From Solidesulfovibrio aerotolerans (GTDB lineage Bacteria > Desulfobacterota > Desulfovibrionia > Desulfovibrionales > Desulfovibrionaceae), in contig NZ_WVUD01000033.1 in the NCBI RefSeq assembly GCF_009856865.1, forward strand, positions 1 to 43,473: DNA of 43,473 nucleotides, read 5' to 3'. Positions 1-14,283 of the stretch are shown here, piece by piece (within the stretch, counting starts at the first letter, position 1; each line of letters starts with the position of its first letter). Below the pieces are notes generated by a model. The model was given only the letters and a program-made list of their open reading frames with translations, ran no database searches and was not told where the DNA came from. A program made the translations under genes and the position numbers.

Positions 1-109
1 TTGAACTTGATGTCATGGCAATTTATGCCATTTTTTCAAAATTGATCGCCTAAGTGGAAAGGCATCATGAGCTTGCACCAGTTGTCGCTTTCAGGCGTCA
101 AGCCTTTTC

Positions 110-280
110 TTAGCCGGACAGTAATGTGCCAATATAAACACCAGCTGGCGCACTCGTCAATTTTTCGTTGAAAACAACAACAAATTTGGCGCATTGCTTG
201 CTTTGCGCAGCCCTTGCGAAAAACAAATCCCCAAGCATTGCCAGCATCACAAACAGACCAACATAACGAAGAGCGTTCAT
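110..280 (-). CDS. Small secreted or membrane protein, unknown
   Basis: A 56-residue protein. I chose the start because GGAGAGG lies four bases upstream of this ATG; an in-frame ATG at 307 lacks such a site. The first 25 residues are hydrophobic (around LFVMLAMLGDLFFA) and look like a signal peptide or single membrane anchor, followed by a short polar tail with one Cys. I recognise no family. It lies downstream of the htpX remnant and Tim44-domain gene on the same strand, inside the AT-richer island. The ribosome binding site and leader are seen in the sequence; that the gene is real is an inference. Confidence 0.4.
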   Translation of the reverse strand: MNALRYVGLFVMLAMLGDLFFARAAQSKQCAKFVVVFNEKLTSAPAGVYIGTLLSG

Positions 281-443
281 CAAGCCTCTCCATGTGACTA
301 CATACAAGCCACAAAATTACAATTACATGGTAAAGCCTTCAGTACCCCATTGGAGGCCTATTGGCGAAGACTTGTGGTCAACGACACTGTAAAACCGCAT
401 AGCCAAGGTAGGCCGGACCGCGATTTCCGGTCCTGCCTGGTGG

Positions 444-764
444 TCATGAAAGTCTGGCCACGACTTCCAAACGTCCGATGCGTTCCTCCAGCGGCGGATG
501 TGTGCTGAAGAGCGAGGCGAACTTGGAGGCGCTGAAAGGGTTGACGATGAATAGGTGGGCCAGGGCGTCATGCGGGGCCACTTCCTGTGCATTGTACATG
601 GACAGGACGATTCTATCCGAAAACCAGTAGCTGCCCACATTCATTGCCGAAGCAAGCACTATCGCAATGACGAGGCCCTCCTTGCCACCCACCATCTGCC
701 CCATGAGGAGCGTCAGGCCGGTGAGCAGGCCGAGCAGAAGAAGAGTCTTGAATTGGCTTGTCAT
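444..764 (-). pseudogene. htpX: htpX remnant with internal in-frame deletion
   Basis: The first 62 or so residues match the start of HtpX, the inner-membrane M48 zinc metalloprotease: MTSQFKTLLLLGLLTGL, then a second hydrophobic stretch and YWFSDRIVLSMYNAQEV. The last 40 match its end (AHLFIVNPFS, then FSTHPPLEERI). The roughly 180 residues between them, which in HtpX carry HExxH and two more membrane segments, are missing with no loss of frame; full HtpX is about 285 residues. The product of 106 residues cannot be a protease but could still insert in the membrane. The start is set by AAAGGTGG before this ATG; an ATG 21 bases upstream has none. It follows the Tim44-domain gene by 74 bases on the same strand and is probably co-transcribed. 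Confidence 0.7.
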
Positions 765-838
765 CTTTCCACCTTTGATTCTCATGGCGGTTTCATCGTG
801 CCAAGCCCGCGGCCGTAGTCCCGGGCGGTTAGCTAAGA

Positions 839-1870
839 CTATCTCTTCAACTGTTGGATGCCTTCAAGAATCCATTCTGGCTTTGTGGCAGACTGGTCAC
901 GACTGATGTGCCATACTTCACGAATTTGCGACGGCTGATCGTTGGCTTGGTTTTCGCGCAGTAGGACATCATAAAGTACCGAGATCACGGTCTGTGTTCC
1001 TTCTGTACCGGCCTCGATCACACGAGCTTCAATCATGAGTATGTCTGTTTTGCCGGGTGTAGGGTCTTCACTCGCTTGGTGGGCGATTTCGGCATAGACT
1101 TCGGGGCTGGTGAACCCACGGATGTCGGTGAGGTCACGACGATCCCAGGAGGTCTGTAAGCGGTTGTAGAGAGCCTTGGCTCCGGCGAGGAACTCGGCCT
1201 CGTCCAGGCCAGCAGGCATGACAACGGGGGGTATTGTGTCGTTAGCGCCACCAGGGGAGGCTGCGATCGTTCGCAGAGTGCCCCAGGAACGTGTCTCCAG
1301 ATTCGGGGCGACATCCCCAGCAGGGCCATCGGCATAGGCCAAGCGATCATGTACGCCGGGAGCGGTCTGCTTCACACGGGTGGTTCCCCCCGCCTGCGCT
1401 CCACGCCGGGCACGGATGAATCGGAAGAGCAGGAAACCGCCGACGCCGAGGAGCACCATTTCAAGGATTCCAAAGCCGCCGAAGCCACCTCCAAAAAAGA
1501 GTGACCCCAACAGGCCACCCATGAGCAGACCACCGACCAGTCCGCCCATGCCACCAAATTTTGAGAGAAACCCGCCAGGAGCCTTCGCCTGGGGTGGCGT
1601 TGACTGCTGCATGTTCGATGCGCTCGTATTCGGGGGAGTGGGCTTATCGTAGCTCTTGGAATAGGAATCCTTGCTGCCAAAGGACTTGTTGCCGCCGAGC
1701 CGCTTGGCTTCAGCGAGATCAATAGACAGGAGGATTAAGGCCAGAGCAAGGAGAGGCAGGCTGAGCCAGCGCAGCACAGTTACCGGATCAGGGGCATTGA
1801 TGGTGAGTGCTTTGGCGTGGGAACCGCCAGCCATCGGCAGATACGTGAAAAGGGGCAGACTTTTTTTCAT
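839..1870 (-). CDS. Tim44-like domain membrane protein
   Basis: A 343-residue protein. Its N-terminal segment is membrane-anchored (hydrophobic run near residues 32-52, ending LLSIDLAEA). A Ser/Lys/Pro-rich linker follows, then a Gly-rich double hydrophobic segment (GGMGGLVGGLLMGG, and LEMVLLGVGGFLLFRFI). The C-terminal 130 residues resemble the Tim44-like fold (FLAGAKALYNRLQTSWDRRD, later REVWHISR and PEWILEGIQQL). Bacterial Tim44-like proteins are envelope proteins of poorly known role. GGAGG lies four bases before the ATG but is buried in a hairpin (separate entry). The htpX remnant follows directly, suggesting an envelope-stress pair whose protease half has decayed. The family call is fairly firm; the role is unknown. 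Confidence 0.75.
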   Translation of the reverse strand: MKKSLPLFTYLPMAGGSHAKALTINAPDPVTVLRWLSLPLLALALILLSIDLAEAKRLGGNKSFGSKDSYSKSYDKPTPPNTSASNMQQSTPPQAKAPGGFLSKFGGMGGLVGGLLMGGLLGSLFFGGGFGGFGILEMVLLGVGGFLLFRFIRARRGAQAGGTTRVKQTAPGVHDRLAYADGPAGDVAPNLETRSWGTLRTIAASPGGANDTIPPVVMPAGLDEAEFLAGAKALYNRLQTSWDRRDLTDIRGFTSPEVYAEIAHQASEDPTPGKTDILMIEARVIEAGTEGTQTVISVLYDVLLRENQANDQPSQIREVWHISRDQSATKPEWILEGIQQLKR

Positions 1871-1898
1871 AGGGCCTCCAGGTTAGGCTGGAGGTCCC
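1871..1898 (-). promoter_or_regulatory. Hairpin masking the Shine-Dalgarno site of the Tim44-domain gene
   Basis: Read on the minus strand, GGGACCTCCAG, a six-base loop CCTAAC, then CTGGAGGCCC, then T and the ATG. CCTCCAG pairs with CTGGAGG (7 bp), and GGG pairs with CCC across one bulged A. The GGAGG ribosome binding site is therefore wholly inside the stem. Such masking is typical of RNA thermometers and translational switches. A chance palindrome is possible. Confidence 0.5.
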
Positions 1899-2331
1899 GA
1901 ATAAGAAAACGAGACATCCAGCATGATTACTCATGCTGAAGGTCTCGCTCATCGGTGGGGACCGACGGCAAGGCCAAGCGCCGGGTATAAGCGCCAGTAC
2001 TGTTGACCTTGCCCGAAAGAGCTACTCCCCTTCAGTTGGTTTGAAACTTATACATCTCTTCGGAGATGTCAACAGGGGCAAAGGTGAATGTCTGGGTATT
2101 TCGGTGAAGTTAGAAAGCCAGTAGTAGATTATAGCATGGAGTCGCGCGATCTTAGGGTGTAATATGGGGAGGCTGACGTGCTTGCTGTGCTTGCCATCAG
2201 GGGTGCTAGTTCGTTTTAGCGAGCAATAGGTGATGGCATATATGTCTGTGGATGTTGAACTTTTGACATGGACTTGTTGTGCTGCTAACTGGTTGGTGAA
2301 GATCATAACCGCCAAAAACGGATAACTTTCT
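1899..2331. other. Intergenic stretch without a convincing gene
   Basis: This is the divergent region between the Tim44-domain gene and the thermonuclease gene. Short open frames on both strands lack ribosome binding sites and recognisable content. Promoters for both neighbours are expected here, but I could not pick one with confidence. Confidence 0.5.
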
Positions 2332-2991
2332 ATGTATCGATTCGTCATGCTTGCCGTTCTCATGTTTTTCCCGTGCTGGTGCTGGGCGTTTACGGGGAAG
2401 GTAATCAATGTAGCCGATGGAGATACGATAACCATCCTGACTCCAGAGAAATCCCAAGTAAAGGTGCGCCTCTACGGTATCGATACACCCGAGAAGGGCC
2501 AAGCCTTTGGCTCGAAGGCAGCAGATTTCACCAAGGAAAGGGCTGCGCTTCAAGACGTTGATGTCCGTGAGATCGACCGAGACCGTTATGGGCGCACTGT
2601 CGGTATCGTGAAGCTTCCGAGCGGCGCGATTCTTAACGAGGAGATTCTCCGTGCAGGATTTGCCTGGGTCTACCGGCAATACTGCAAACAGAGTTATTGC
2701 TCACAGTGGGCTGAAGTCGAACGTCAAGCCCAGGTCGCAAAGATCGGACTCTGGGCTGATCCAAACCCAACCCCACCTTGGGAATGGAGGCATGGGGGAG
2801 CTGGAAAGGCGACGGATGCGACCACCAACGCCAGTCCCAAAGCTGCGACATTTCATGGAAATACGCAGAGCAGGGTGTTTCATTCTCCTGAGTGTAAGCA
2901 TTATGCTTGTAAAAATTGCGCTGAAGACTTTAACTCTCGTGAAGAAGCTATAAGCGCTGGGTATAAATCGTGCCATATTTGCAGACCGTAG
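2332..2991 (+). CDS. Secreted thermonuclease (SNase-like) with C-terminal Cys/His domain
   Basis: A 219-residue protein. Residues 1-20 form a signal peptide (MLAVLMFFPCWCWA). Residues 21-145 are a staphylococcal-nuclease fold: GKVINVADGDTITIL, VRLYGIDTPEKGQAFG, the catalytic-type Arg in REIDRDRYGRTVG, and the terminal GLWADPNPTPPWEWR. The last 45 residues form a small Cys/His domain (SRVFHSPECKHYACKNC, then SCHICRP), of the metal-binding kind that often follows SNase domains. It would cut DNA or RNA in the periplasm or outside the cell, using calcium. The ribosome binding site is weak. It stands alone in the island, and whether it is cargo of the element is unknown. Confidence 0.85.
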   Translation: MYRFVMLAVLMFFPCWCWAFTGKVINVADGDTITILTPEKSQVKVRLYGIDTPEKGQAFGSKAADFTKERAALQDVDVREIDRDRYGRTVGIVKLPSGAILNEEILRAGFAWVYRQYCKQSYCSQWAEVERQAQVAKIGLWADPNPTPPWEWRHGGAGKATDATTNASPKAATFHGNTQSRVFHSPECKHYACKNCAEDFNSREEAISAGYKSCHICRP

Positions 2992-3186
2992 TCTTCAAAA
3001 GACCCAATATGTCACATTATGAACATCTTGTTAAATTGTTGTATAGCTAAAATATAAAATTAATTTCTCAATAACTACGTACGGCCTGAATATTTATGCT
3101 ATGCATGCCTAGCGGAAAACGGATGTAGATAGCAATGCTAACACTGCTGTGGTCCATGGACCAAGATTGACGACGGAGATGCCCAG

Positions 3187-3393
3187 ATGAATAAGGCCAA
3201 TTTGAAGAAGCTTGAAAAAGCCGCAAACTTCTTGCGCGAAGTGTATGATGACCTTGAGACCTCAGAGAACAATGATTTCGACGAATTCGGCTCCCGGCTT
3301 GATGAAGCTGCTGCTGCGATAGAAGCCATCCTTGAAGACGTTGAAGCAGCGTCTAAAGAGGATGACGAGGATGAAGGGTTTGAAGTAGATTGA
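3187..3393 (+). CDS. Small acidic helical protein, unknown
   Basis: A 68-residue protein with a GGAG site 8-12 bases upstream of the ATG. It is strongly acidic, especially the C-terminus (KEDDEDEGFEVD), and is predicted helical with heptad-like hydrophobic spacing (FLREVYDDLE, IEAILEDVEAA). There is no signal peptide or Cys. Acidic small proteins in mobile elements are sometimes DNA mimics or antitoxins, but nothing in the sequence proves that here. An interrupted membrane-protein gene follows after 13 bases, so the two may be co-transcribed. Confidence 0.55.
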   Translation: MNKANLKKLEKAANFLREVYDDLETSENNDFDEFGSRLDEAAAAIEAILEDVEAASKEDDEDEGFEVD

Positions 3394-3406
3394 AAGGTTG
3401 TAATTT

Positions 3407-3616
3407 ATGAACAACAAAATCACCACCTTATTCGCGTGGCTCGTCGGCGGCGCTGTCTTGGTCTACCTGTCCGTATTTGGGGTGGGGACGGGCACATGCA
3501 CCCCTTGAATGGCCGTAGGTGCTTCTGGAGTCGCGGGTTACGGCTCCTTAATTTTGGCCAAGTGGTTCGGCAAGAAAAAGCCCAAAGATCGGGACCATGA
3601 CGAATCTGAGCGTTAA
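3407..3616 (+). CDS. Small two-helix membrane protein interrupted by an in-frame TGA
   Basis: Reading from ATG 3407 gives 33 residues with one membrane helix (LFAWLVGGAVLVYLSVFGVG), ending in CTP and then TGA at 3506-3508. The same frame continues at once with ATG and 34 more codons: a second helix (VGASGVAGYGSLILAKWF) and a charged tail (KKKPKDRDHDESER). Read through, it is one coherent hairpin protein of about 69 residues with a CTPxM loop. Three explanations fit: a nonsense mutation, two coupled mini-genes, or selenocysteine at TGA giving a CxxU motif. A 6-bp stem (GCCGTA with TACGGC) lies just downstream, but its loop is long for a bacterial SECIS. I do not recognise the family. Confidence 0.4.
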
Positions 3617-3700
3617 CTGCGCCACTTGCCATCCTGGTCCGCCGGATTTTTTCCAGACATTTTCATGCCGGACAATCCCTGCCTGCTGATGGGACAATTA

Positions 3701-4526
3701 GGGCCTGTCTCCAAATCATCGTAGCCAGATAAGGCATGATGCAATGGTGAGCATGGTCAGAAATGTTCTGGCCAATTTTTCATAACGCGTAGCGATACGC
3801 CGGAAATCTTTAATTTTACAGAAGAAGCACTCCACCAAGTGTCGCTCTTTGTAGAGATGCCTGTCGTATTCGCGCTGCACGCGGCGGTTTTTCTTCGGAG
3901 GGATTACCGGCACAGCGCCCTGCTTGAGGATAAGGTCGATGAAATGTTGAGCGTCGTAGGCCTTGTCGGCGGCGACATGGTCAGCCGCAAGCCCCTCAAT
4001 CAGCTCGGTGGCAGGCACAATGTCGTGAACTTGGCCCCCGGTGAGTTTCAGACGAATGGGGTTGCCCAGGGCATCAACGACGGCATGGATTTTAGTCGTT
4101 AATCCACCGCGACTGCGCCCGATAGCCTGAGAATCGCGCCCCCCTTGCCTCCGGCCGCATGCTGATGCGCTCGGACATACGAACCGTCCAAGAAGACGGC
4201 CTCAAGGTCGGCCTCACTGGAGAGTTTGCTCAAAACATCCTGCCAAAGCAGTGATTTGGACCAAGCATTGAAACGTTTGTAGACGGTCTTCCAGGAGCCG
4301 ACCTCATCAGGGAGATCGCGCCAGGGAGCGCCTGTATGAAGAATCCAGAGGATACCGTTGAGGATAAGGCGTGAATCCTTGGCTGGCCTGCCACGGCGCT
4401 CCTGCCGAGGAGGACAGACAATTGGTTCAAGGCGTTGCCAGAGTTCGTCGGGGATGTCGTACCTGCTCATGCGGGAAACATAGCACAATAGTCTGAAATA
4501 TCAAGGCATTATTTAGAGACAGGCCC
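3701..4526 (-). mobile_element. IS5-family insertion sequence (IS427-like), 826 bp
   Basis: The ends are imperfect inverted repeats: GGGCCTGTCTCCAAAT on the left and the complement of ATTTAGAGACAGGCCC on the right, with one mismatch in 16. Both are flanked by TA (3699-3700 and 4527-4528), the target duplication expected of the IS427 group. The size, split DDE transposase and terminal GGGCCTGTCTC fit that group. It inserted between the interrupted membrane-protein gene and a small unknown gene. It looks complete and possibly active. Confidence 0.9.
3716..4488 (-). CDS. IS5-family DDE transposase made by frameshift
   Basis: Two frames make up the transposase. Frame A (4488 down to 4099) has the N-terminal DUF4096-type region (YDIPDELWQRLEPIVCP, LNGILWILHTGAPWRDLP) and the first catalytic Asp in VFLDGSYVRAHQHA. 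Frame B continues as GRDSQAIGRSRGGLTTKIHA, then the second Asp in AADKAYDAQHF and the Glu in HLVECFFCKIK with RRIATRYEK, ending at 3716. The frames differ by -1, and a run of six G (minus strand, 4139-4144) at GGKGG is the likely slip site. Programmed frameshifting at such runs is usual in the IS427 group. A plain mutation cannot be excluded, but no other damage is seen. Confidence 0.88.
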
Positions 4527-4563
4527 TAGTAACAATGAAAGCGCGGCCCTGCTATGGTCAAGT

Positions 4564-4770
4564 ATGACCAGACCCGTGCTGGCGATCTATCTTCGTGGTG
4601 ATCAAGGCAATCGGCGCTTTCTCCTTGCCGCCGTTGCCGCGCTTCGCCGATCAGGACAACTCGCCGAAGCGAGGGAAATGCTCCGACGGGGTATTGATGT
4701 GAGAAACTGGCGGGCCTTGCTGTTGCTTGTTGCCGAGTACGTTGACCTAGATCTCATTATTCGAGGATAG
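4564..4770 (+). CDS. Small protein, unknown
   Basis: A 68-residue, Leu/Arg/Ala-rich protein (LLAAVAALRRSGQLAEAREMLRRG) that looks like one TPR-type helix pair, with a hydrophobic C-terminal stretch. No good ribosome binding site is visible. It starts 38 bases after the insertion sequence, so it may be the tail of a gene that the IS disrupted. I recognise no family. Confidence 0.3.
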   Translation: MTRPVLAIYLRGDQGNRRFLLAAVAALRRSGQLAEAREMLRRGIDVRNWRALLLLVAEYVDLDLIIRG

Positions 4771-4852
4771 TCGCTTGGAACATTTGCCCCTCATTTGGTC
4801 ATGAACTCATAGCTTGTGTGCGGGGCAGTGGCCTAAGGTATGATATTTAATT

Positions 4853-4881
4853 TTGTCATTTGTATTGTTATGCGTTGTAAT
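4853..4881 (+). promoter_or_regulatory. Candidate sigma-70 promoter of the exporter gene
   Basis: TTGTCA (4853-4858), 17 bases, then TGTAAT (4876-4881), in an AT-rich stretch 70 bases upstream of the exporter start. Both boxes differ from consensus by one or two bases. Confidence 0.4.
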
Positions 4882-4951
4882 AATCGATGCACTGTCACGA
4901 TGAGAGAGGAATTCAATACAATAGTTCTTTTAATAATGAAGGGAACTGCCA

Positions 4952-6523
4952 ATGAGTGAAACGAATAGCAGGGCCAACGCCAGCGCCTGGGGGATTCTGG
5001 CAGCCATGAGCTTTGGCGCGCTCATTGCCCAGATGTTCAGCACGGTGATCGGTCCCGCCTTGCCTACAGTCAAAGATGATCTCGACCTGTCCCTGTCGAT
5101 GCAGACCTGGACGATCACTTCATACAGCCTTGCCTTCGGCACGGCGCTGATCGCTGGCGGTCGCCTCGGCGACCTCGTCGGCGAGGTCCGCATGATTGTG
5201 ATCGGCTATATGGTTTTCGGCGGCGGCCTCATCCTGTCCGCCATGGCCACGAGCGGCTTGCTCATGGTGTCCGGGCGCACAATGCAAGGCATCGGCATCG
5301 GTATTTCAGCACCGGCCACCCTGTCCATCGTCGTAAACGCATTTTCCGCTTCCCGATGTGGATTCGCTGTCGGCGTGTGGGGATTTGCCCACGGGTTCGG
5401 ATTGCTGGTCGGTCCGATATTCGCGGGCTACATGCTCGATCTGCTGAGTTGGCGCTGGGTCTTCTGGCTCGCCGTGCCGCTGACTGCCGCAGTCATTCTC
5501 GTCACTCTGGCGGCTACAAGGAACTATTGCAGCGTACTGTCTTCCGGCCGCTATGACATCATCGGTCTCGTCCTCGGCGGCCTTGGGATCACCTTGGTTA
5601 CCTATGGATTGCAAAACGCCAGCAACGGCTGGGGTACCCCTAGCACCTGGGGGGCTCTGGCGGTCGGCGTTGTGCTGCTCGCCTTGTTCGGCATTGTCGA
5701 GACCCGCACAGATTATCCCCTCGTCGATTTTTCCCTGTGGCGTGAGCGTCTTTTTTCCGGCGCTTTTTTTGCCGAAAGCGCCGTCGGTTTCGTCTATATC
5801 CCTATGCTGACCGTCGTGGGATCACTGTTTTTCATCGAAGTTCTTGGTTACTCGCCAGTGATGGCCAGTTGGGTCATCGTCATCACGACCGGAACTTGCA
5901 TGGTGCTTGAACCGCCCGCAGGTCGCCTTATCGACCACATCGGACCGGGAATTCCCATTGTGGCTGCACTGGCCATGCAGGCCGTCGCGTTGTTCTGGAT
6001 GGGCACCTTCTGTCCGGAGACAACCCTGGGCGAACTCATCATCCCCTTGGCGCTGATGGGAGCAGGCGTCGGAATCGCCTTGCCAGCCTGCAATGCGGCC
6101 GGGATGCGTACACTCAAGCCCGAACAGGCAGGCATGGGCTCCGGTCTTCTTCAGATGACATTCAACGTACCGGCCGCGCTAGGTGTCGCCCTGGTCACAT
6201 CGATCATGGGGGCTCATTCTCTTGACAAGGTGTGGACAGCTTTGGCCGGAAAGCCGTTTCTCCAGCAGGGCCTGGAATATGCGCAAGCCGTCAAAGACGG
6301 GAACGATGCAGTAGCCGCAGCCATCCTCGAGTCACTGCCCTCCGATTCAGCAGCAATGGTGGAAAACGCCATGGTTTCAGCGCAAGCCTCAACAATCGCT
6401 ATGAGCATGACGGTCCTTGGAAGCATTGCACTGGCTGGGGCGATCATGGCTCTGCTGATCATCGGCCGCCGCAGATGCCCAAAGGAAAATCCACTTGCTG
6501 GCTCAGTCCAGGATGATGAGTGA
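4952..6523 (+). CDS. DHA2-family MFS drug exporter, 14 membrane segments
   Basis: A 523-residue protein of the EmrB/QacA type. It exports drugs or other organic compounds by proton antiport at the inner membrane. Visible motifs are the DHA2 start with a hydrophobic helix and VIGPALPTVKDDL, motif A (GGRLGDLVGEVRM), motif B (SGRTMQGIGIG) and motif C-like GVWGFAHGFGLLVGPIFAGYM, followed by RWVFWLAVPL. Hydrophobic segments continue to residue 508. The length is usual for the family. GAAGGGAA precedes the ATG. There is no membrane-fusion partner or regulator beside it, so it may act alone. It is plausible cargo of the element; the substrate is unknown. Confidence 0.88.
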   Translation: MSETNSRANASAWGILAAMSFGALIAQMFSTVIGPALPTVKDDLDLSLSMQTWTITSYSLAFGTALIAGGRLGDLVGEVRMIVIGYMVFGGGLILSAMATSGLLMVSGRTMQGIGIGISAPATLSIVVNAFSASRCGFAVGVWGFAHGFGLLVGPIFAGYMLDLLSWRWVFWLAVPLTAAVILVTLAATRNYCSVLSSGRYDIIGLVLGGLGITLVTYGLQNASNGWGTPSTWGALAVGVVLLALFGIVETRTDYPLVDFSLWRERLFSGAFFAESAVGFVYIPMLTVVGSLFFIEVLGYSPVMASWVIVITTGTCMVLEPPAGRLIDHIGPGIPIVAALAMQAVALFWMGTFCPETTLGELIIPLALMGAGVGIALPACNAAGMRTLKPEQAGMGSGLLQMTFNVPAALGVALVTSIMGAHSLDKVWTALAGKPFLQQGLEYAQAVKDGNDAVAAAILESLPSDSAAMVENAMVSAQASTIAMSMTVLGSIALAGAIMALLIIGRRRCPKENPLAGSVQDDE

Positions 6524-7086
6524 GTTGCCGCCAAGAGGCGCTGATTGCCCTTGTCCGGACGGACTGGGGTTGCTGCTCCGCGTTTGAATTTAGTCGCTTC
6601 CGACCAACTATGAGCCAACAAGCGCCAACGTTATGTGGTAGAGTACCGAAAGATTTTGGCCTAAGAAACAGACCCGGACACGCCAAGTGTCAGGAGGGTG
6701 GAGTAGGTAAACCTAGTCGGAACCCATAGGATTTGACCGGGTTTGCTCTGGCCTAAGTGGCTGTAAATATGGGTGAAGTTCGCTAAATGAAAGCTTTTTC
6801 ACACCTTAGCAATAACGTTCAGGTTCTTATCCCACTGTAAAGCGTCGCGACTACGATAAAAGGTAAGCTGTTTTTTGGAAGAAACCGATGTATAGCCATG
6901 ATGTGTCGCTATTTTAGGTTGTTACAAATTTGTGAAAGGTCGTAATGGTCGTAAAAAAATCTACATACAATTACAAAATAAACAGACGACAAGGAATTGT
7001 ATATTTTTTGCGTTGGCAGGTTTCCCTAGTTGATATTATAGATTTCTTGATCTAATGTAGCTTAAAATATGGACTCGGTGAGCACA
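6524..7086. other. AT-rich intergenic stretch before the recombinase
   Basis: There is no convincing gene here. The GC content falls sharply after about 6760, and long A/T runs appear (for example around 6950-7060). It probably carries the recombinase promoter; TTGATA near 7030 is a weak -35 candidate. The short open frame 6520-6729 has no ribosome binding site. Confidence 0.5.
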
Positions 7087-8724
7087 ATGAATAGCACCCC
7101 TCCCGCTAGCGCAGGTATATATGTTCGAGTATCTACTGCCAACCAAATCGACAAAGATTCGCTGCATACGCAAGAGGAAAGACTCCGTGCATATTGTGTA
7201 GCAAACCAAATACCGGTTTTTAAGTTGTATAAGGACGCGGGCTTTAGCGCCAAAGACACTAACCGACCCGCACTTAAAGACTTGCTTAGGGATGCAGAAT
7301 CAGGATTGATAACATCTGTTTTTGTGACAAAACTTGACCGAATAACAAGGTCAACGAAAGATTTGATGTACTTAACAGAATTTTTTGAAGGGATTAGCAT
7401 TCGCTTCGCAAGTATATCAGAAAATATCGATACGACCTCCGCACATGGTAGGTTATTACGTCAGATTATAGGAGTTCTTTCACAGTTTGAGAGAGAATTG
7501 GTAGCTGAACGTGTGTCTGTAGACATGTCGCATCGTGCTCGATTAGGCAAATGGAATGGAGGTGTTGTCCCATTTGGTTACACTACTCAGGAACTGTACT
7601 CTAAGCACCTCATTGATTTAGGCACTGAAAGCCCAGACGCTTCCTTGCAAAGTGCCAGTTTATATCCTGAGCAGAAAAAATTATATGTATACCAAAGCGA
7701 GGCTAAAGTCGTTAATAATATATTTCAGGTCTTTATTTCTCACAATAGCATAAGAAAGACTGCCCACGCTCTTAACAATCAGGGTTTTAGAACACGGAAT
7801 GGTGGGCACTGGGGAACTGTTTCAGTCCATAGAATTCTTACAAATCCTACATATATAGGTAAAACGTGGTATGGTAAAAGGAGGAGTGACCCTGTAACTG
7901 GTAAGTTAATTGCTCAAGACAAGCAGGATTGGATTATTTGTGACGGACAACATCCTTCGATAATTGATGTTGATACTTATGAGTCTGTCCAAGTGATGCT
8001 AAAGTCGATATCGACGAAGCCGACGAACAGTAAACGCAACTATTTGCTTTCAGGCATATTGAAATGTGGTTTGTGCGGCGGAGCGATGGCTGGCAATACT
8101 ACTTCCAAGAAAAATTCTGACAAAACTTATGGGTACTATAAATGCGTAAATCGCATGCAAAAAGGTCTTGAAGCCTGTTCTGGGTTAAATATACCTTCCG
8201 TAGAAATAGAGAAGTATGTTGCTGACAGTTTGTTAGCACTTTCGGAAAACAAAGAATTTTTGACTGACAAGCAAAAAATTTTAGATCTATTTTTTACACA
8301 AAATTCTAATAGCAAAATAAATGCTTGTGACTTGTCGCAAATAGAATCAAACATTCAATTGTTACAAAATCGTCTTGACAACTTGTTGGGTGCTTTAGAA
8401 TGCAATAGAATAGATGGTGACGATTTTGATCGAAGATACGCTGTTCTTAAGAAAGAAATAGACGAGGCCAAGGCGGCAAGGGATCACCTTGTCGGGTTAA
8501 TCAATGAGAAGGACACAACTAAAACGTTTCTTCTAACCTCTTTCGAAAACCTCTGTTCGTTTGCCACAAATTGGGAATTTTTAGACGATGTGGGGAAGGC
8601 TTTGCGGCTCAAATCTATTGTTAGAGAAGTTCGGGTTACAAGCCAATTCGTTGATATTGATGTATTTATTGATGTTGGAGAAGTGTTCCACACGGGCAGG
8701 GATTCATGGCGCAAACCAGCATGA
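7087..8724 (+). CDS. Large serine recombinase (site-specific integrase)
   Basis: A 545-residue protein from ATG 7087, which has GGTGAG four bases upstream; an ATG at 7069 has no such site. Domains in order: the resolvase catalytic domain (GIYVRVST with Ser16, then TKLDRITRS and [11 protein letters not shown]), the PF07508-type recombinase domain (VPFGYTTQ to [18 protein letters not shown]), a zinc ribbon from about residue 326 (KCGLCGGAM, with the second pair KCVN and ACSG), and a coiled-coil tail. Large serine recombinases integrate and excise elements between short att sites. Codon use is AT-rich, unlike the host. Its final codons, [11 protein letters not shown] and the stop, are antisense comM sequence, so the gene lies at the very end of the element. 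No directionality factor is recognised. Confidence 0.95.
8685..8712. other. Attachment-site junction inside comM
   Basis: On the minus strand comM reads normally up to ATGAATCCCTGCCCGTGTGG (MNPCPCG) and then becomes foreign (TLLQHQ, stop). On the plus strand this same point is the 3' end of the recombinase gene. The crossover must lie at or next to the NPCPCG codons. The exact two-base core cannot be set without the other end of the element. Confidence 0.75.
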
Positions 8725-9754
8725 CGTCGGCCGGATAGGACAGCGACATTGCCGCCCGGGCAATGGTCACCTTGCCGTCTTCAAGGGGCTGGCGCAGCAC
8801 TTCCAGCACCGATTTCTTAAATTCCGGCAGCTCGTCGAGAAACAGCACCCCCCGATGGGCCATGGACACCTCGCCCGGCCGGGGATACGACCCGCCGCCG
8901 ATCAGCCCGGCGTCGGAAATGGTGTGGTGCGGGCTGCGAAACGGCCGCACCGTCAAGAGTCCCTCGCCGTCGAGCCGGCCGGCCACGGAATAAATGGTGG
9001 TGACCTCCAGGGCCTCCTCGAAGCCAAGGGGCGGCAGCACCGTGGGCATGCGCTTGGCCAGCATGGTCTTGCCCGAACCCGGCGGGCCGATAAACAGCAG
9101 ATTGTGCCCTCCCGCCGCTGCAATCTCCACCGCCCGCTTGGCATGCTCCTGGCCCTTGACCTCGGAAAAATCCTCGGCAAAGGCCGCGTCCACCACATCC
9201 GGCACAAAGGGCTGGGGCACAACCGGCGAGAGCGGTTCCTCGCCGGTAAAAAAACGCAGGGCTTCCAGGAGTGTCCCCACGGCATAGACCGAAAGGCCCT
9301 CCACCACCGACGCCTCGGCCGCATTGCCGCGCGGCACAACAAGCCCCCGCGCTCCCTCGCGCCGCGCCCGGGCCGCCAAAGGCAAAATGCCGGGCACGGG
9401 CCGCAGTTCGCCGGTCAGCGACAACTCGCCGGCCAGGAAAAATCCGTTCGTGGCCTCGGCCGGAAAGGCGTCCACGGCCGCCAAAAGGGCCAGGGCCAGG
9501 GGCAGATCGTAGGCCGACCCTTCCTTGCGCATATCGGCCGGGGCCAGATTGACGGTGATGCGCGCCGGCGGCAGCTTCAGGCCCGCATTGCGCAGAGCCG
9601 CGAACACCCGTTCCTTGCTCTCGCGCACCGCCCCCTCGGCCAGCCCGACCATGGAAAACGACGGCATACCCTGGCGCGCCAGATCCACTTCCAGGGAAAC
9701 GGGATAGGCTTCGATGCCAAGGAGCGCTGCTGTGCGAATCGTGGAAAGAGTCAT
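8690..9754 (-). pseudogene. comM: comM (YifB/Mg-chelatase-like) 5' fragment cut by the element
   Basis: The N-terminal 355 or so residues of the ComM/YifB AAA+ family are intact: the LonC-like domain ([35 protein letters not shown]), Walker [11 protein letters not shown] and Walker [12 protein letters not shown]. The sequence stops being ComM straight after MNPCPCG, where the element joins; six foreign codons follow to a stop. Full ComM is about 500 residues, so the sensor and C-terminal helical parts are missing. ComM is a hexameric helicase that aids branch migration during natural transformation in studied species. The fragment probably lacks function while the element is present. Confidence 0.93.
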
Positions 9755-9906
9755 GATGGTTGTACAACCGATATCGTGGCTCCGCTAACGGCGCAAGGAT
9801 TTTAGCGCAGCCGGGCTTTTCATTTTACAACGCCGATGCTATCAAGAGCATGTTTCACCGCTTGGCTCACCGTTCATCCTTCGACCCATCGGAAGTCTTA
9901 ACAGCA

Positions 9907-11856
9907 ATGAAGCCACCACGCTTTTCCCTGACGCGTTCCGTCGGCGGCGCGGTCCTCGTGACGCTTATATGCGTCAATACATTGCTGTTGGCCGTTTTTG
10001 GCCTCATCGACTATTTCGGGGAGGATCGACGCCTGCAAGAGGAGCTGCGCTACGACCTGTCCGTCATCACCGAGCAGCTCGCCGCCAATCTGGGCGAACC
10101 GTTGTGGTTTATGGAAAACGCCCATGTCCAGCATCTGGTGGACGGGGCCATGCAAAATGAACGCGTGGCTGCTGTGGTGGTCACCGAACCGGCGGACGGC
10201 AACATCGTCATCGGCCGCAGTCGTGATCGCAGCTGGAGTCCCTCGCCCGTGGCCTTTCAACCGGCCCTGGAAAACGCGATCAGCAAAAAAAACGATATCT
10301 ATTTCGGCGAGGCCCTGGTCGGGAAGGTGGAAGTCCAGATGAGCCGGCGCTTTATGGACAGCGCCCTGCAAAACTCCCTGATCCTTATTGTCCTGCGCAT
10401 CTTTGGTCTCAACGCCGCCCTGGCCGTCGTCCTGGTCATGGTGCTGCGCCGCCAGATCATCGGGCCTTTGACCCGCCTGGAACGCTACGCCGCTCAGGTG
10501 GCCCAGGGCGGCAGCGCCGACGACCGGCCAACAGGCCTTTATGGCGAACTCGACAGCCTGTCCCGGGCCATGGAAGAAATGGTGCACCGCATTTCTTTAG
10601 CCCAACGCAAATACCGCGATATCTTTGAACACGCCACCGAAGGCATCTTCCAAAGCACCTTGGACGGCCGCCTGCTTTCGGCCAATGCCGCTTTGGCCAA
10701 AATGCTCGGCTACGAATCTCCGGCCGCCATCCTCGACAGCATCACCGACATCGACAGCCAACTGTACTACGCCGCCTCTGACCGGCAACAGCTCCTGGCG
10801 CGTCTCATGCAAGAGGAGTTCGTCACGGGTTTCCAGGCCCGCTACGTGCGCCGCGATAAACAGACCATCTGGGTGCTCGTCAATATCCGGCTCGTGCGCG
10901 ACAACGCCGGGCTGCCGCTGTATACCGAAGGCACCATCTCCGACATCACCGCCCGGGTGCGGGCCGAACGACGCCTGGAAATTCTCATTCGCCATCTGCG
11001 CGAAGCCGTCAAGGAACGCAGCGGCCGGCTTGCCGTCAAAGCCGCCGAACTCGAAGCCGCCAATCTGCGCCTGCAGGAACTCGACCGCCTCAAATCCGGC
11101 TTCCTGGCCACCGTTTCCCACGATCTGCGCACCCCGCTGACTTCCATCATGGGCTTTGCCAAACTCATCTCTCGCGATTTTCTGAAATATTTTGCGCCGT
11201 TTGCCACAGGGCACGACCGCCTTGCCCGCCAGGCCGAGCGCATTGCCTCCAATCTCGCCATCATTGAAAACGAAGGTGAACGCCTCACCCGGCTGATCAA
11301 CGACTTCCTCGATCTGTCCAAAATCGAAGCCGGGCGCGCCCAATGGCGCGATACCCAGGTCGATGTGGCGGCGGCCCTGACCCGGGCTGCCGATGCCGTC
11401 AGCGCCGATTTCGACGCCAAACCCGGTGTCCGTTTCACCATGACCATCGCGGAGAATCTGCCGCCCCTGACCATCGATCCCGACCGGTTGACCCAGGTGC
11501 TCGTCAACCTGCTCGGCAATGCCGCCAAATTCACTGACGAAGGGTTTGTCAAACTGCACGCTTTTGTCCGCGACGATCTGCTGCGTATCGAACTCACCGA
11601 CACCGGGGAGGGCATTCAAAGAGAATCCCTGGAGAAAATCTTCGATAAGTTCCATCAGGCCCAAGCCAGCGATACCGTCGAGGAAAACCGCCGCCGCAAA
11701 GGCACCGGCCTTGGCCTGGCCATCTGCCGTCAGATCGTTGAGCACTACCAGGGGCGCATCTGGGTCGAATCCGAACTGGGACGCGGCAGCACCTTCATCC
11801 TGGAACTCCCCCTGGCCCAACCGCCGGCCGTTGCAGCTTCCGGCCCGGATGCCTAG
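9907..11856 (+). CDS. Membrane sensor histidine kinase (HAMP-PAS-HisKA-HATPase)
   Basis: A 649-residue protein from ATG 9907, with GGAAG upstream; the frame is open earlier but the extension is not kinase-like. TM1 is at about residues 13-37, a periplasmic sensor region at about 38-155, TM2 at about 157-178, then HAMP and PAS from about 234 (YRDIFEHATEGIF). The HisKA phospho-acceptor is His405 in ATVSHDLRTPL. The HATPase has the N box VNLLGNAAKF, G1 DTGEGI and G2 GTGLGLAICRQIVE. It phosphorylates an unknown response regulator; none is adjacent. It diverges from comM with a 152-base gap. The signal is unknown. Confidence 0.92.
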   Translation: MKPPRFSLTRSVGGAVLVTLICVNTLLLAVFGLIDYFGEDRRLQEELRYDLSVITEQLAANLGEPLWFMENAHVQHLVDGAMQNERVAAVVVTEPADGNIVIGRSRDRSWSPSPVAFQPALENAISKKNDIYFGEALVGKVEVQMSRRFMDSALQNSLILIVLRIFGLNAALAVVLVMVLRRQIIGPLTRLERYAAQVAQGGSADDRPTGLYGELDSLSRAMEEMVHRISLAQRKYRDIFEHATEGIFQSTLDGRLLSANAALAKMLGYESPAAILDSITDIDSQLYYAASDRQQLLARLMQEEFVTGFQARYVRRDKQTIWVLVNIRLVRDNAGLPLYTEGTISDITARVRAERRLEILIRHLREAVKERSGRLAVKAAELEAANLRLQELDRLKSGFLATVSHDLRTPLTSIMGFAKLISRDFLKYFAPFATGHDRLARQAERIASNLAIIENEGERLTRLINDFLDLSKIEAGRAQWRDTQVDVAAALTRAADAVSADFDAKPGVRFTMTIAENLPPLTIDPDRLTQVLVNLLGNAAKFTDEGFVKLHAFVRDDLLRIELTDTGEGIQRESLEKIFDKFHQAQASDTVEENRRRKGTGLGLAICRQIVEHYQGRIWVESELGRGSTFILELPLAQPPAVAASGPDA

Positions 11857-12065
11857 AGACCCGGGACGCCGTCCCAACCCCGCCGGGAAGCTGTCCCGGA
11901 CCCCACCGGGGCAGAGCCCCGAGAATCACAGCATTGCGTGTCGCGGATGTGCCAGCTCCCCGGCCAAGGGCAGACAGGCCCTTGGGTTGACGGGGGGGCT
12001 GGAAGTAGATAAATATAATATATCCGGCGAATTAACGCCTCACCACGTCCAGGATTCGTGTTTCC

Positions 12066-12845
12066 TTGAGAAGAGATAAAGTCCTTTTGTTGCTGCTGCT
12101 TGGCTGTCTCGTCTGCACGTCCGGCATTGCCATCTATTGTAAGCTGGACAGTGTCCGTATGGACAAACGTATGCGAGACGCCGACGCCACCGCCACCACC
12201 GCCACCAACGTCACAACGGCTTTGAATGACCTCAGCGGGTTTTATAAGCGCACGCGGAGAGGTGTTTGCCTCAGCGAGTTGCGCTCCCAGAACGATCCCC
12301 TGATCGTCCTGTTCGGCGATAGCATCTTGGAACAGTTGTATTTTCCGGCTTTGGACGGCATCAATGCGTTCAATGCCGGTGTTTCAGGAGCCAAGGCTCT
12401 GGAGTCACTGGAGTTTGTGGGGGATGTTCTGGCCGCTTCGCACGGCCCGTTGGTGATCCTGGCCCTGGGGATCAACGACGCTTTCGGCCCACCTGCCTCC
12501 GCTCCGGAACAGTTTGCCGCCGTGTATGAGGCGTTGGTGCGCGCAATTTTGGCCAGCGGCCGCAAGACAGTGTTGGTCACCCTGCCGCCCTTGGAGAGCG
12601 ACAAGTCGGAATCCCAGCTGTTAAGCGGGACCAATCTGGATGCCTACAACGCCGTCATCCGGGAAACCGGGGCCCGCCATGCGCTGCTCGTGGCCGACAT
12701 CAATGCCGTGCTGACGCAGCGGCGCCTCAAAAATTACGTCTCCCAGACCGTGGACGGCGTGCATCTTACTGCCGCCGCTGCTGTCGTGTGGCGCGATACC
12801 GTCTACGCTGTCGCCCGCCAGGCCCTGGCCCAACCCGTGAAGTAG
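12066..12845 (+). CDS. SGNH/GDSL-fold hydrolase-like protein, membrane-anchored
   Basis: A 259-residue protein with a probable TTG start and AGGA about ten bases upstream. An N-terminal hydrophobic anchor (VLLLLLLGCLVCTSGIAIYC) is followed by the SGNH fold: block I LFGDSILEQ, block II with Gly in FNAGVSGAKA, block III LGINDAFG and block V DGVHLT. The catalytic Ser, Gly, Asn and Asp/His positions are all present, so it is probably an active esterase or acyl-hydrolase acting outside the inner membrane, perhaps on sugar acyl groups. A second SGNH protein lies at 17309-17953. The start is uncertain. Confidence 0.78.
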   Translation: MRRDKVLLLLLLGCLVCTSGIAIYCKLDSVRMDKRMRDADATATTATNVTTALNDLSGFYKRTRRGVCLSELRSQNDPLIVLFGDSILEQLYFPALDGINAFNAGVSGAKALESLEFVGDVLAASHGPLVILALGINDAFGPPASAPEQFAAVYEALVRAILASGRKTVLVTLPPLESDKSESQLLSGTNLDAYNAVIRETGARHALLVADINAVLTQRRLKNYVSQTVDGVHLTAAAAVVWRDTVYAVARQALAQPVK

Positions 12846-12887
12846 CGACTGCCGCCGCCCGGTGCGGCGATCCGTACAGGCAGCCGG

Positions 12888-13451
12888 CTACTTGTGGAAG
12901 GTGGCCATGGATTTGTTGAGTTCGTAGAGCAGGGTGGTCAGGCGAACGAGATAGCTTTCATAGAGCTTTTGCACGTCGGTAGACGAACTCAGCTCTATCT
13001 CCTGATTGCGGGTGGTCAGGAAGTAGACCATGTTGTTGAGAAAGGCGACGATGTTTTTGGTGCGGTTAAAGACGTATTCGTTGATGTCCGTCTCTGTGGA
13101 ACCCACCAGATTGAGATAGATATAGAGGACATCGACGAGGTTATTCAAGCTCGTCGTCACCTTTTGATGCGTATCGAACAGGAACCGCAGCTTGCGATAT
13201 TCCTGGCTGTCCTTGTTTTTCTCATAGACCGGCAGCAGGGTCAGAATCTGACTCTCGCTCGCCCGGGGTTCGCTGTAATATTTGACCACGTCGTCGAGCA
13301 TGGTCACCAGCGTGGCTTCGTCAAAGACTAACGGCGGTGCCGGCTGCGGCGGCGTTTCGGCCAGGGCAGACCCGGCCCCAAGACACAGCATCAAGGCCAC
13401 AAGAACGGCCGGGCCGAGGCCGACGCAGCGGCGGAAAAGACGGGCGGTCAT
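12888..13451 (-). CDS. Secreted helical protein, unknown
   Basis: A 187-residue protein. I chose ATG 13451 because GAGG lies nine bases upstream and a clean signal peptide starts there (MTARLFRRCVGLGPAVLVAL, ending ALA). ATG 13466 is the alternative. The mature part is helical, with many Tyr, Leu and Asn (VTTSLNNLVDVLYIYLNLVG, VAFLNNMVYFL), and has no Cys. It follows the DsbA-like gene by 34 bases on the same strand and is likely co-transcribed with it. I do not recognise a family. Confidence 0.7.
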   Translation of the reverse strand: MTARLFRRCVGLGPAVLVALMLCLGAGSALAETPPQPAPPLVFDEATLVTMLDDVVKYYSEPRASESQILTLLPVYEKNKDSQEYRKLRFLFDTHQKVTTSLNNLVDVLYIYLNLVGSTETDINEYVFNRTKNIVAFLNNMVYFLTTRNQEIELSSSTDVQKLYESYLVRLTTLLYELNKSMATFHK

Positions 13452-13485
13452 GGCGGAAAGCCTCATTTCGGGACGCGTGCCGGGA

Positions 13486-14283
13486 TCACTGTTTTTTCTT
13501 GTCGCAGGCAGCACAAGGCGCTTCCTGGCCACCGGAACGGGAGACCCGGCGCAGCACGTCTTCAAATTCGTCCAGGGGGGCGGCCCCGCGCACGGATACG
13601 CCGTTAATGACAAAGGTCGGGGTGGCGTCGAACCCGAAAGACCGGGCCTCGGCCGTGTCGTCGTCGATGCGCTTGGCCAGTTCCGGTTTTTTCAGATCGC
13701 GCTTAAGCTGCCCCACATTGGCACCGAGCTTGACAGCCAGGGCGTAGACCATCGGTTCCCCGCCCTGCTCGATCTCGGCCTGGGCGGCAAAAATGGCGTC
13801 GTGGAAGGCAAAAGCCAGCTTGGGGTCTTGGACGGCCAGGGCTTCATAGACCAGGGCGGCCTGCTTGGCCAGTTCGTCTGTGGCGTAGTGTTTAAAGAGC
13901 ACCCGCACCGAATCCGGGTGGCGCGCGGCGAAGTCTTTGAGGGTCAGCGCGCCTTTGGCGCAGTACGGGCACAGGAAGTCGGAATAGACCACCACGGTGA
14001 CGGTGGCGTCGGCCGGTCCGCGCAAGGCCCGGGCCGGGTCGATGACCGGGGCGAGCGGTGTTTTGAATTCCGCCTCCTGTTTGGCCTGGCGCTGGCTGTC
14101 CTGGTAGCTTTGCTGGCCCTGCATGACCAGGGCGAACAACTCAGCCTTGCGCTCGCCCAGGGCGTCGAGGACGATGTCAGGGTGCTCTTTGAGGGCGTCT
14201 TTGACGCCGTTCCCGGAAGAGGCCGGGGCGCAGGCAACAAGGGCAACGAGGGGCAACAGGGCCAAAATGGTGCGCAAGAGCAT
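13486..14283 (-). CDS. DsbA-like thioredoxin-fold lipoprotein
   Basis: A 265-residue protein from ATG 14283, which has AAAGGA eight bases upstream. A lipoprotein signal (LLRTILALLPLVALVAC) precedes a helical spacer and a DsbA/Com1-type domain: VVVYSDFLCPYCAKGALTL carries the CPYC active site, and the cis-Pro loop is in FDATPTFVING. Family members make or reshuffle disulfides in exported proteins. The tail ends in CAACDKKKQ, two extra Cys that could bind metal or relay electrons. No DsbB-like partner is adjacent; the next gene encodes a Cys-free secreted protein. Confidence 0.88.
   Translation of the reverse strand: MLLRTILALLPLVALVACAPASSGNGVKDALKEHPDIVLDALGERKAELFALVMQGQQSYQDSQRQAKQEAEFKTPLAPVIDPARALRGPADATVTVVVYSDFLCPYCAKGALTLKDFAARHPDSVRVLFKHYATDELAKQAALVYEALAVQDPKLAFAFHDAIFAAQAEIEQGGEPMVYALAVKLGANVGQLKRDLKKPELAKRIDDDTAEARSFGFDATPTFVINGVSVRGAAPLDEFEDVLRRVSRSGGQEAPCAACDKKKQ

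Follow-up and report, generated by a model that had tools for sequence, protein, structure and literature searches.

A large serine recombinase (LSR) gene in a genomic island of Solidesulfovibrio aerotolerans runs into the comM gene that the island has cut, which raises the question of whether the integrated island and the excised circle encode the same enzyme. We addressed this in the window, the whole 43,473-nucleotide stretch that was analysed, which is contig C88 of the draft genome G000 (161 contigs), and in related elements from other genomes, viral contigs and phages. How a serine integrase decides between integration and excision is a central question, for which the usual answer is a separate directionality factor.

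The recombinase frame ends inside comM

The features at the junction are as follows.

Positions 7069-8724, plus strand: LSR in its integrated form, 551 aa, ending ...VFHT+GRDSWRKPA before TGA (Pfam profiles and open reading frame).
Positions 8695-8724, plus strand: tail of the LSR (nine codons) and its stop codon, from antisense comM (hybrid-site reconstruction).
Positions 8694-8698, no strand: crossover interval GG-G-CA of the right hybrid site; the crossover dinucleotide is GG or CA for the window family and GG in the family of Desulfovibrio sp. A2 and contig L060.
Positions 8666-9754, minus strand: N-terminal fragment of comM, 362 aa; the comM sequence breaks off immediately after NPCPCG, and the island supplies the last six residues, TLLQHQ, and the stop.

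The window LSR matched the Pfam profiles Resolvase (3.9e-36), Recombinase (1.8e-23) and Zn_ribbon_recom (5e-14), all above their cut-offs, and the order of the domains, Resolvase followed by Recombinase and zinc ribbon, is that of a serine integrase. It also matched the integrase family phrog_95 at 2.7e-122. The predicted structure of the protein alone had a mean pLDDT of 35.8.

The first-pass annotation had the recombinase frame running through the integration junction, and this was borne out: the frame crosses from island to comM uninterrupted and stays open as far as a TGA at 8722-8724, within antisense comM. It had also assigned the last 11 or so residues and the TGA to comM. The comM origin stood and the length did not, as the comM-derived part comprises eight or nine residues (GRDSWRKPA) plus the stop codon, and the H and T before it belong to the island. 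Part of codon one, or of codons one and two, of GRDSWRKPA also comes from the island, according to the crossover point. We looked for an att core well outside the recombinase gene and found none; the core at 8694-8698 is inside the LSR gene.

The joined flanks restore a single comM

The only Mg_chelatase_C match in the G000 genome was found on contig C91, where island DNA adjoins the missing half of comM ('...AACCCTTGTCCCTGCGGCTATCTGG'), and a search of G000 for an intact comM copy elsewhere found none. With this left end in hand, the flanks from C88 and C91 could be joined, and comM was restored in frame through NPCPCG. Since the sole Mg_chelatase_C match adjoins island DNA and the joined flanks are in frame, the island/comM junction is not a chance one. 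The right hybrid site, AATCCCTGCCCGTGTGG, and the left hybrid site, AACCCTTGTCCCTGCGG, differ at codon third positions on either side of the core, so the island attP itself resembles the NPCPCG codons.

Among 13 other genomes of the genus, comM is an open frame of 513-551 codons in nine and is cut in three (G003, G004 and G007); the remaining one, G002, is an incomplete genome without a comM match. Across the class, 299 of 348 genomes have a comM match, and besides G000, G003, G004 and G007 at least six carry comM frames shorter than 460 codons. Five of these short frames were retrieved, leaving out G243, in which comM starts at contig base 2. LSR elements occupy the same comM point in two of the five (G066, Desulfovibrio sp. 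A2, and G153, a Desulfovibrionaceae MAG); in G204 comM is intact up to the contig end, and in G229 and G328 it lies near contig ends. In G015 (C38:107022-120144) comM is split near residue 200, not at NPCPCG, and about 12 kb separate its two parts.

The insertion point within comM is thus fixed, with the same NPCPCG position used in G000, G007, G003, G004, G066 and G153 and in the viral contigs L059 and L077. That the element targets a conserved comM stretch, as first suggested, agrees with the many LSRs described as using this target in the available part of PMC10083194.

Arms and cargo of the island

Positions 1-8698, no strand: stretch of C88 taken to be the island's right arm, carrying SNase, transposase, MFS transporter and other genes; the extent of the island is inferred.

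An IS4/5-type transposase lies in two ORFs at 3702-4526 of the window. The flanking stretches 3396-3701 and 4527-4779 adjoin each other in G007 (L041, 8338-8893), so the IS either inserted in the window copy or left that of G007. Part of 4577-4779 is present twice in L041. On C91 the island cargo (L040:858-11628) includes PAP2 and DagK lipid enzymes, HU, a Ros/MucR regulator, a cellulose-synthase-like glycosyltransferase, a 961-aa TPR protein and a GH8 hydrolase, and from these gene contents looks like an exopolysaccharide (cellulose-like) cluster.

The reconstructed circular frame continues into an HTH domain

Contig C91 (L040:12887-13156), minus strand: left-arm HTH ORF, outside the window (HTH_3 profile).

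In the reconstructed circle of G000, the LSR frame passes attP and continues for 108 codons into this ORF, which matched HTH_3 at 4.2e-7 (30.3 bits; cut-off 23). The left end of the island lies outside the window, and loss of the HTH was therefore invisible to the first-pass annotation. Elements at the same comM position in G007 and G003, whose LSRs are 98% and 79% identical to that of the window, behave alike, so that all three family members have long circular tails (108 codons in G000, 108 in G007 and 101 in G003), with HTH_3 at 4e-7, above cut-off, in both the G000 and G003 tails. The other two frames across the joint remain open for 15, 15 and 15 codons and for 16, 16 and 23 codons in G000, G007 and G003, respectively. 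As a control, we used 900 start positions per left end and found frames open for at least 100 codons at 0.9% (G000), 2.2% (G007) and 0.1% (G003) of them. The same control gave 0.4% for G004, 0.1% for G066 and 30% for G153; a 100-codon open tail is not rare at the G153 end, but it is rare at the others (0.1-2.2%).

In each of G000, G007 and G003 the two island ends are on separate contigs, as they would be if the ends on C88 and C91 came from two different tandem elements and the window LSR and HTH were never neighbours in a circle. We consider this very improbable, because the same pair of ends recurs in three genomes, there is a single comM that is in frame once restored, and both ends share one contig in G004, G066, G153 and L077. 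Searches of the G000, G007 and G003 assemblies and of the viral contigs for the attP pattern of the window family returned no exact match.

We also compared shared stretches between window positions 1-12000, C91 positions 1-14000 and 10-20 kb from the contigs of four relatives. Within these stretches, what G000 and G003 have in common is limited to the region from the LSR to comM, about 1.3 kb of left arm and a further 229-base stretch, and the island ends that they share adjoin each other only in the circular form. G007 and G003 have about 6.9 kb of the left arm in common, the comM piece included. Between G000 and G003 the DNA of the HTH and linker is 93-94% identical and that of the LSR only 69-76%. 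The linker has a dN/dS of 0.85 from few sites, with no clear constraint on its amino acids, and the HTH a dN/dS of 0.31. Beyond the HTH stop the alignment (L040 vs L044) is visibly worse than between att and the HTH stop, and the latter segment (L040:12887-13156 vs L044) seems to have been exchanged or to be under unusual constraint.

At E <= 1e-50 the window LSR was found in three of 348 class genomes, its own included, with no close relatives beyond the genus; a first scan of the genome contigs returned none, the viral contigs one weak relative, and the phage and plasmid records, among the matches listed, sequences below 60% identity only. The window-family HTH alone was present in two of 297 class genomes, G000 and G007, in a set that does not include G003. 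Two plasmid records with an HTH beside an LSR were considered as examples of a fusion and rejected, as the HTH is upstream and not fused.

An unsplit attP in a second lineage

The LSR of G066 is only 22% identical to that of the window and belongs to a second family, to which G004 (54% identical to G066) and G153 (53%) contribute further members. Both comM halves are on a single contig in each of these three genomes. The circular tail of G066 is 101 codons long and encodes a MerR-like HTH. Those of G004 (12 codons) and G153 (18 codons) are short and without an HTH, so that one member in three has the domain. HTH fusion is therefore not needed by all comM LSRs.

Scanning the IMG/VR viral contigs with this family identified two contigs. 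L059 is an integrated element whose LSR has the tail GRGSWPPPA. L060 carries an unsplit attP as predicted from G066, with one of the eight bases before the crossover different, and sets the crossover of the G066/L060 family at GG. Its sequence follows the island flanks of G066 (290 of 308 and 282 of 308 bases identical) and not the comM flanks (27 of 100 and 26 of 100). A single open frame at 1754-2746 of L060 leads from the LSR into a MerR-like HTH, which matched MerR_1 at 5e-4 (20.5 bits, just below the curated cut-off of 21.6); in this record the LSR is frame-broken further upstream. The early suggestion that circular and integrated forms encode different LSR C-termini thus holds in reconstruction, and the unsplit frame was seen directly in this relative. 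The HTH of G066 has its own ATG with GAGGA seven bases upstream and could be made as a separate protein; the corresponding codon in L060 is CTG. The C-terminal stretch of L060 had no match in phages by tblastn.

A third lineage in a provirus and a phage

Next, the viral contigs were scanned for antisense comM, and all 24 contigs found were tabulated for an LSR frame through the hybrid core. Two had such a frame of more than 500 codons: L082, the contig of L059, and L077. The contig of L077, an AT-rich LSR provirus, runs as far as the comM-derived stop of the LSR; the first 64 bases of the contig read PCGNFLNQSKACSCNDNKIKT on the comM strand, too short for a Mg_chelatase_C search. Over 541 columns the L077 LSR shares 25% identity with the window LSR; with that of G066 the identity is 20%. 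The circular tail of L077 spans 144 codons and matched HTH_3 at 1.2e-10 over residues 25-75, and its first 83 codons contain no ATG, GTG or TTG.

The tail of L077 had no match in phages by tblastn. The LSR of L077 is 49% identical to that of Paenibacillus phage Paisley, a 695-aa protein annotated as a serine recombinase, with two HTH_3 stretches at its C-terminus (1.7e-13). The tails of Paisley and L077 are 32% identical over 69 residues (1e-11), and phage Harrison is identical to the Paisley LSR over the last 153 residues.

These lineages bear on a simpler explanation, in which attP overlaps the 3' end of the LSR gene incidentally, the LSR tolerates its tails, and the HTH belongs to an independent regulator gene beside attP that is in frame by accident. 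The short circular tails of G004 and G153, the plausible start of the G066 HTH, the unequal divergence of LSR and HTH in the window family and the wide range of comM-derived tails (4 to 86 codons) would all fit it. An accident of this kind sits poorly with an open in-frame continuation across three lineages, an HTH without a usable start in L077 and with a lost start in L060, and a 695-aa LSR in Paisley that already includes HTH_3 stretches; we regard it as unlikely. What differs recurrently between circle and integrated form is an HTH domain, which is present at the end of the circular frame and missing after integration.

In the record of Acetoanaerobium phage ANDSL2_ph1 (L095; PP197248.1 13603-20210), an LSR is followed by a host comM piece ending AAMNPCPC, and past this piece by three small ORFs and then an endolysin and a holin. 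The depositors give culture supernatant as the source and list the genome as that of a complete phage; it seems to carry captured host DNA and an integrated-form integrase.

Tails and att cores across elements

Both ends are known for seven elements (G000, G007, G003, G004, G066, G153 and L077), which were found through a cut comM or an LSR and are not an unbiased sample. All seven have an LSR frame that crosses the comM junction. An HTH is present in the circular tail of five, or of three in five when the window family is counted once; in this count the G007 and G066 copies were judged from near-identical relatives.

We compared the last codons of related comM-inserted recombinases, as had been proposed, and found comM-derived tails of 9, 9, 41, 24, 86, 9 and 9 codons in the seven elements, 9 in L059 and 4 in L091. 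Host codons set the length and sequence of the tail, which is consequently poorly conserved. The proposal that the tail acts as a sensor of integration state was not supported, and a degradation tag or sensor was rejected as the leading explanation. The tail gained from comM is probably of little importance, and what matters is what the LSR loses on integration.

The reconstructed attP and attB differ except for 2-6 core bases, as in serine integrase systems. The shared core is GG in G000, G066 and G153, GGACA in G003, GGG in G004 and GGACAT in L077. In a palindrome analysis centred on GG, attP scored 16/20 in each of G066, G153 and L060 and 12/20 in G004. L077 gave 14/20 with CA as centre, where the best of 500 shuffles gave 13. 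The window family, at 10/20, was no better than shuffles, 223 of 500 of which reached 10.

A proposed record of integration state

We propose that the island inserts into comM by an LSR whose own gene holds attP. By sequence, the LSR of the integrated island ends a few residues past the core, in comM-derived codons; in the reconstructed circle, the same frame passes attP and reaches a DNA-binding domain of the HTH type at the C-terminus. The two states of the island would then encode different enzymes, with a state-dependent LSR C-terminus. We infer that the LSR-HTH fusion serves the integration reaction, restrains its own expression, or both, and that it exists only in the circle, with integration trimming the HTH. 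After integration there would remain the basic LSR, plus an HTH ORF for which no promoter or ribosome-binding site can be recognised. The element would in this way record its own integration state in a single step, and we think that this account is probably right. If it is, DNA rearrangement itself changes the domain make-up of the integrase, a form of state-dependent control.

Two sequence searches bear on the integrated state. No sigma-70-like site was found in 800 bases of the window-family left end, a weak absence where 0.4 are expected by chance, and no Shine-Dalgarno-like stretch precedes the ATG of the window-family HTH. For these reasons the separated HTH is probably silent when integrated. 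A further element may be regulatory.

Positions 6772-6805, no strand: inverted repeat, a possible operator, that precedes the LSR by about 260 bases; G007 has the identical sequence and G003 retains part of it.

From sequence, the HTH may aid integration, restrain expression or be a tethered directionality factor. In the last case the fusion encoded by the circle would favour the excised state by blocking attP x attB, and integration would require LSR made in the donor cell or LSR separated from the HTH. Such an effect has a precedent in engineered integrase-RDF fusions, which in the available part of the report reverse direction and lower attP x attB recombination (PMC5737554). The circle would then encode an enzyme ill suited to the single reaction that it requires, and the family matches included no known LSR directionality factor; we judge this reading improbable.

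Returning to the LSR-HTH fusion as a record of integration state, we put forward a more general version tentatively: comM-targeting serine integrases may have repeatedly evolved a self-switching gene, with attP separating the LSR core from a DNA-binding domain at the C-terminus. The circle would make an integrase-regulator dedicated to entry, and integration would trim the enzyme and silence the regulator, a protein-level memory without a separate regulator.

The split gene also has a practical side. When LSRs are mined as tools for genome engineering, those that come from integrated elements may end in host-derived codons, here 4 to 86 of them, and may lack their natural C-terminal domain.

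Comparison with known systems

SSV-type archaeal integrases are tyrosine recombinases whose gene contains attP and is disrupted by integration. Integration thereby breaks the SSV-type enzyme, whereas the domains of the window LSR stay whole. Our searches of open-licence literature turned up no paper describing an LSR-HTH gene that its own attP splits. For phage SV1, attP was proposed to lie downstream of the integrase gene, as given in the available text (PMC4068962).

The preference for comM is already known: in the portion of Durrant et al. 2022 at hand (PMC10083194), the 'magnesium chelatase/ATP-dependent protease' gene is the target of 12.4% of predicted site-specific integrases. Those LSRs belong to the same enzyme class and, by name, share the target gene family with the window LSR; that portion makes no mention of attP inside the LSR frame or of an HTH lost on integration (PMC10083194).

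Engineered integrase-RDF fusions (Olorunniji et al. 2017, PMC5737554) resemble the predicted circular LSR-HTH in placing a small protein on the LSR C-terminus, and linker length was not critical in the tested variants described in the available text. They differ in being man-made and in that the fused part is an RDF; the window LSR-HTH would be natural, with an HTH part predicted for the circle only (PMC5737554).

A parallel in design comes from mycobacteriophage integration-dependent immunity, in which, according to the available sections of the source, attP lies inside the repressor gene, viral and prophage forms differ in their C-termini, and the repressor stop codon may involve host DNA (PMC8092301). 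Systems of this kind are defined by a repressor that integration makes shorter and active. The window island is alike in having attP within a gene and state-dependent C-termini, but its attP lies inside the LSR gene and not inside a repressor gene. In integration-dependent immunity a repressor is split by a tyrosine-family integrase, whereas in the window island the integrase itself is split and would lose a DNA-binding domain (PMC8092301).
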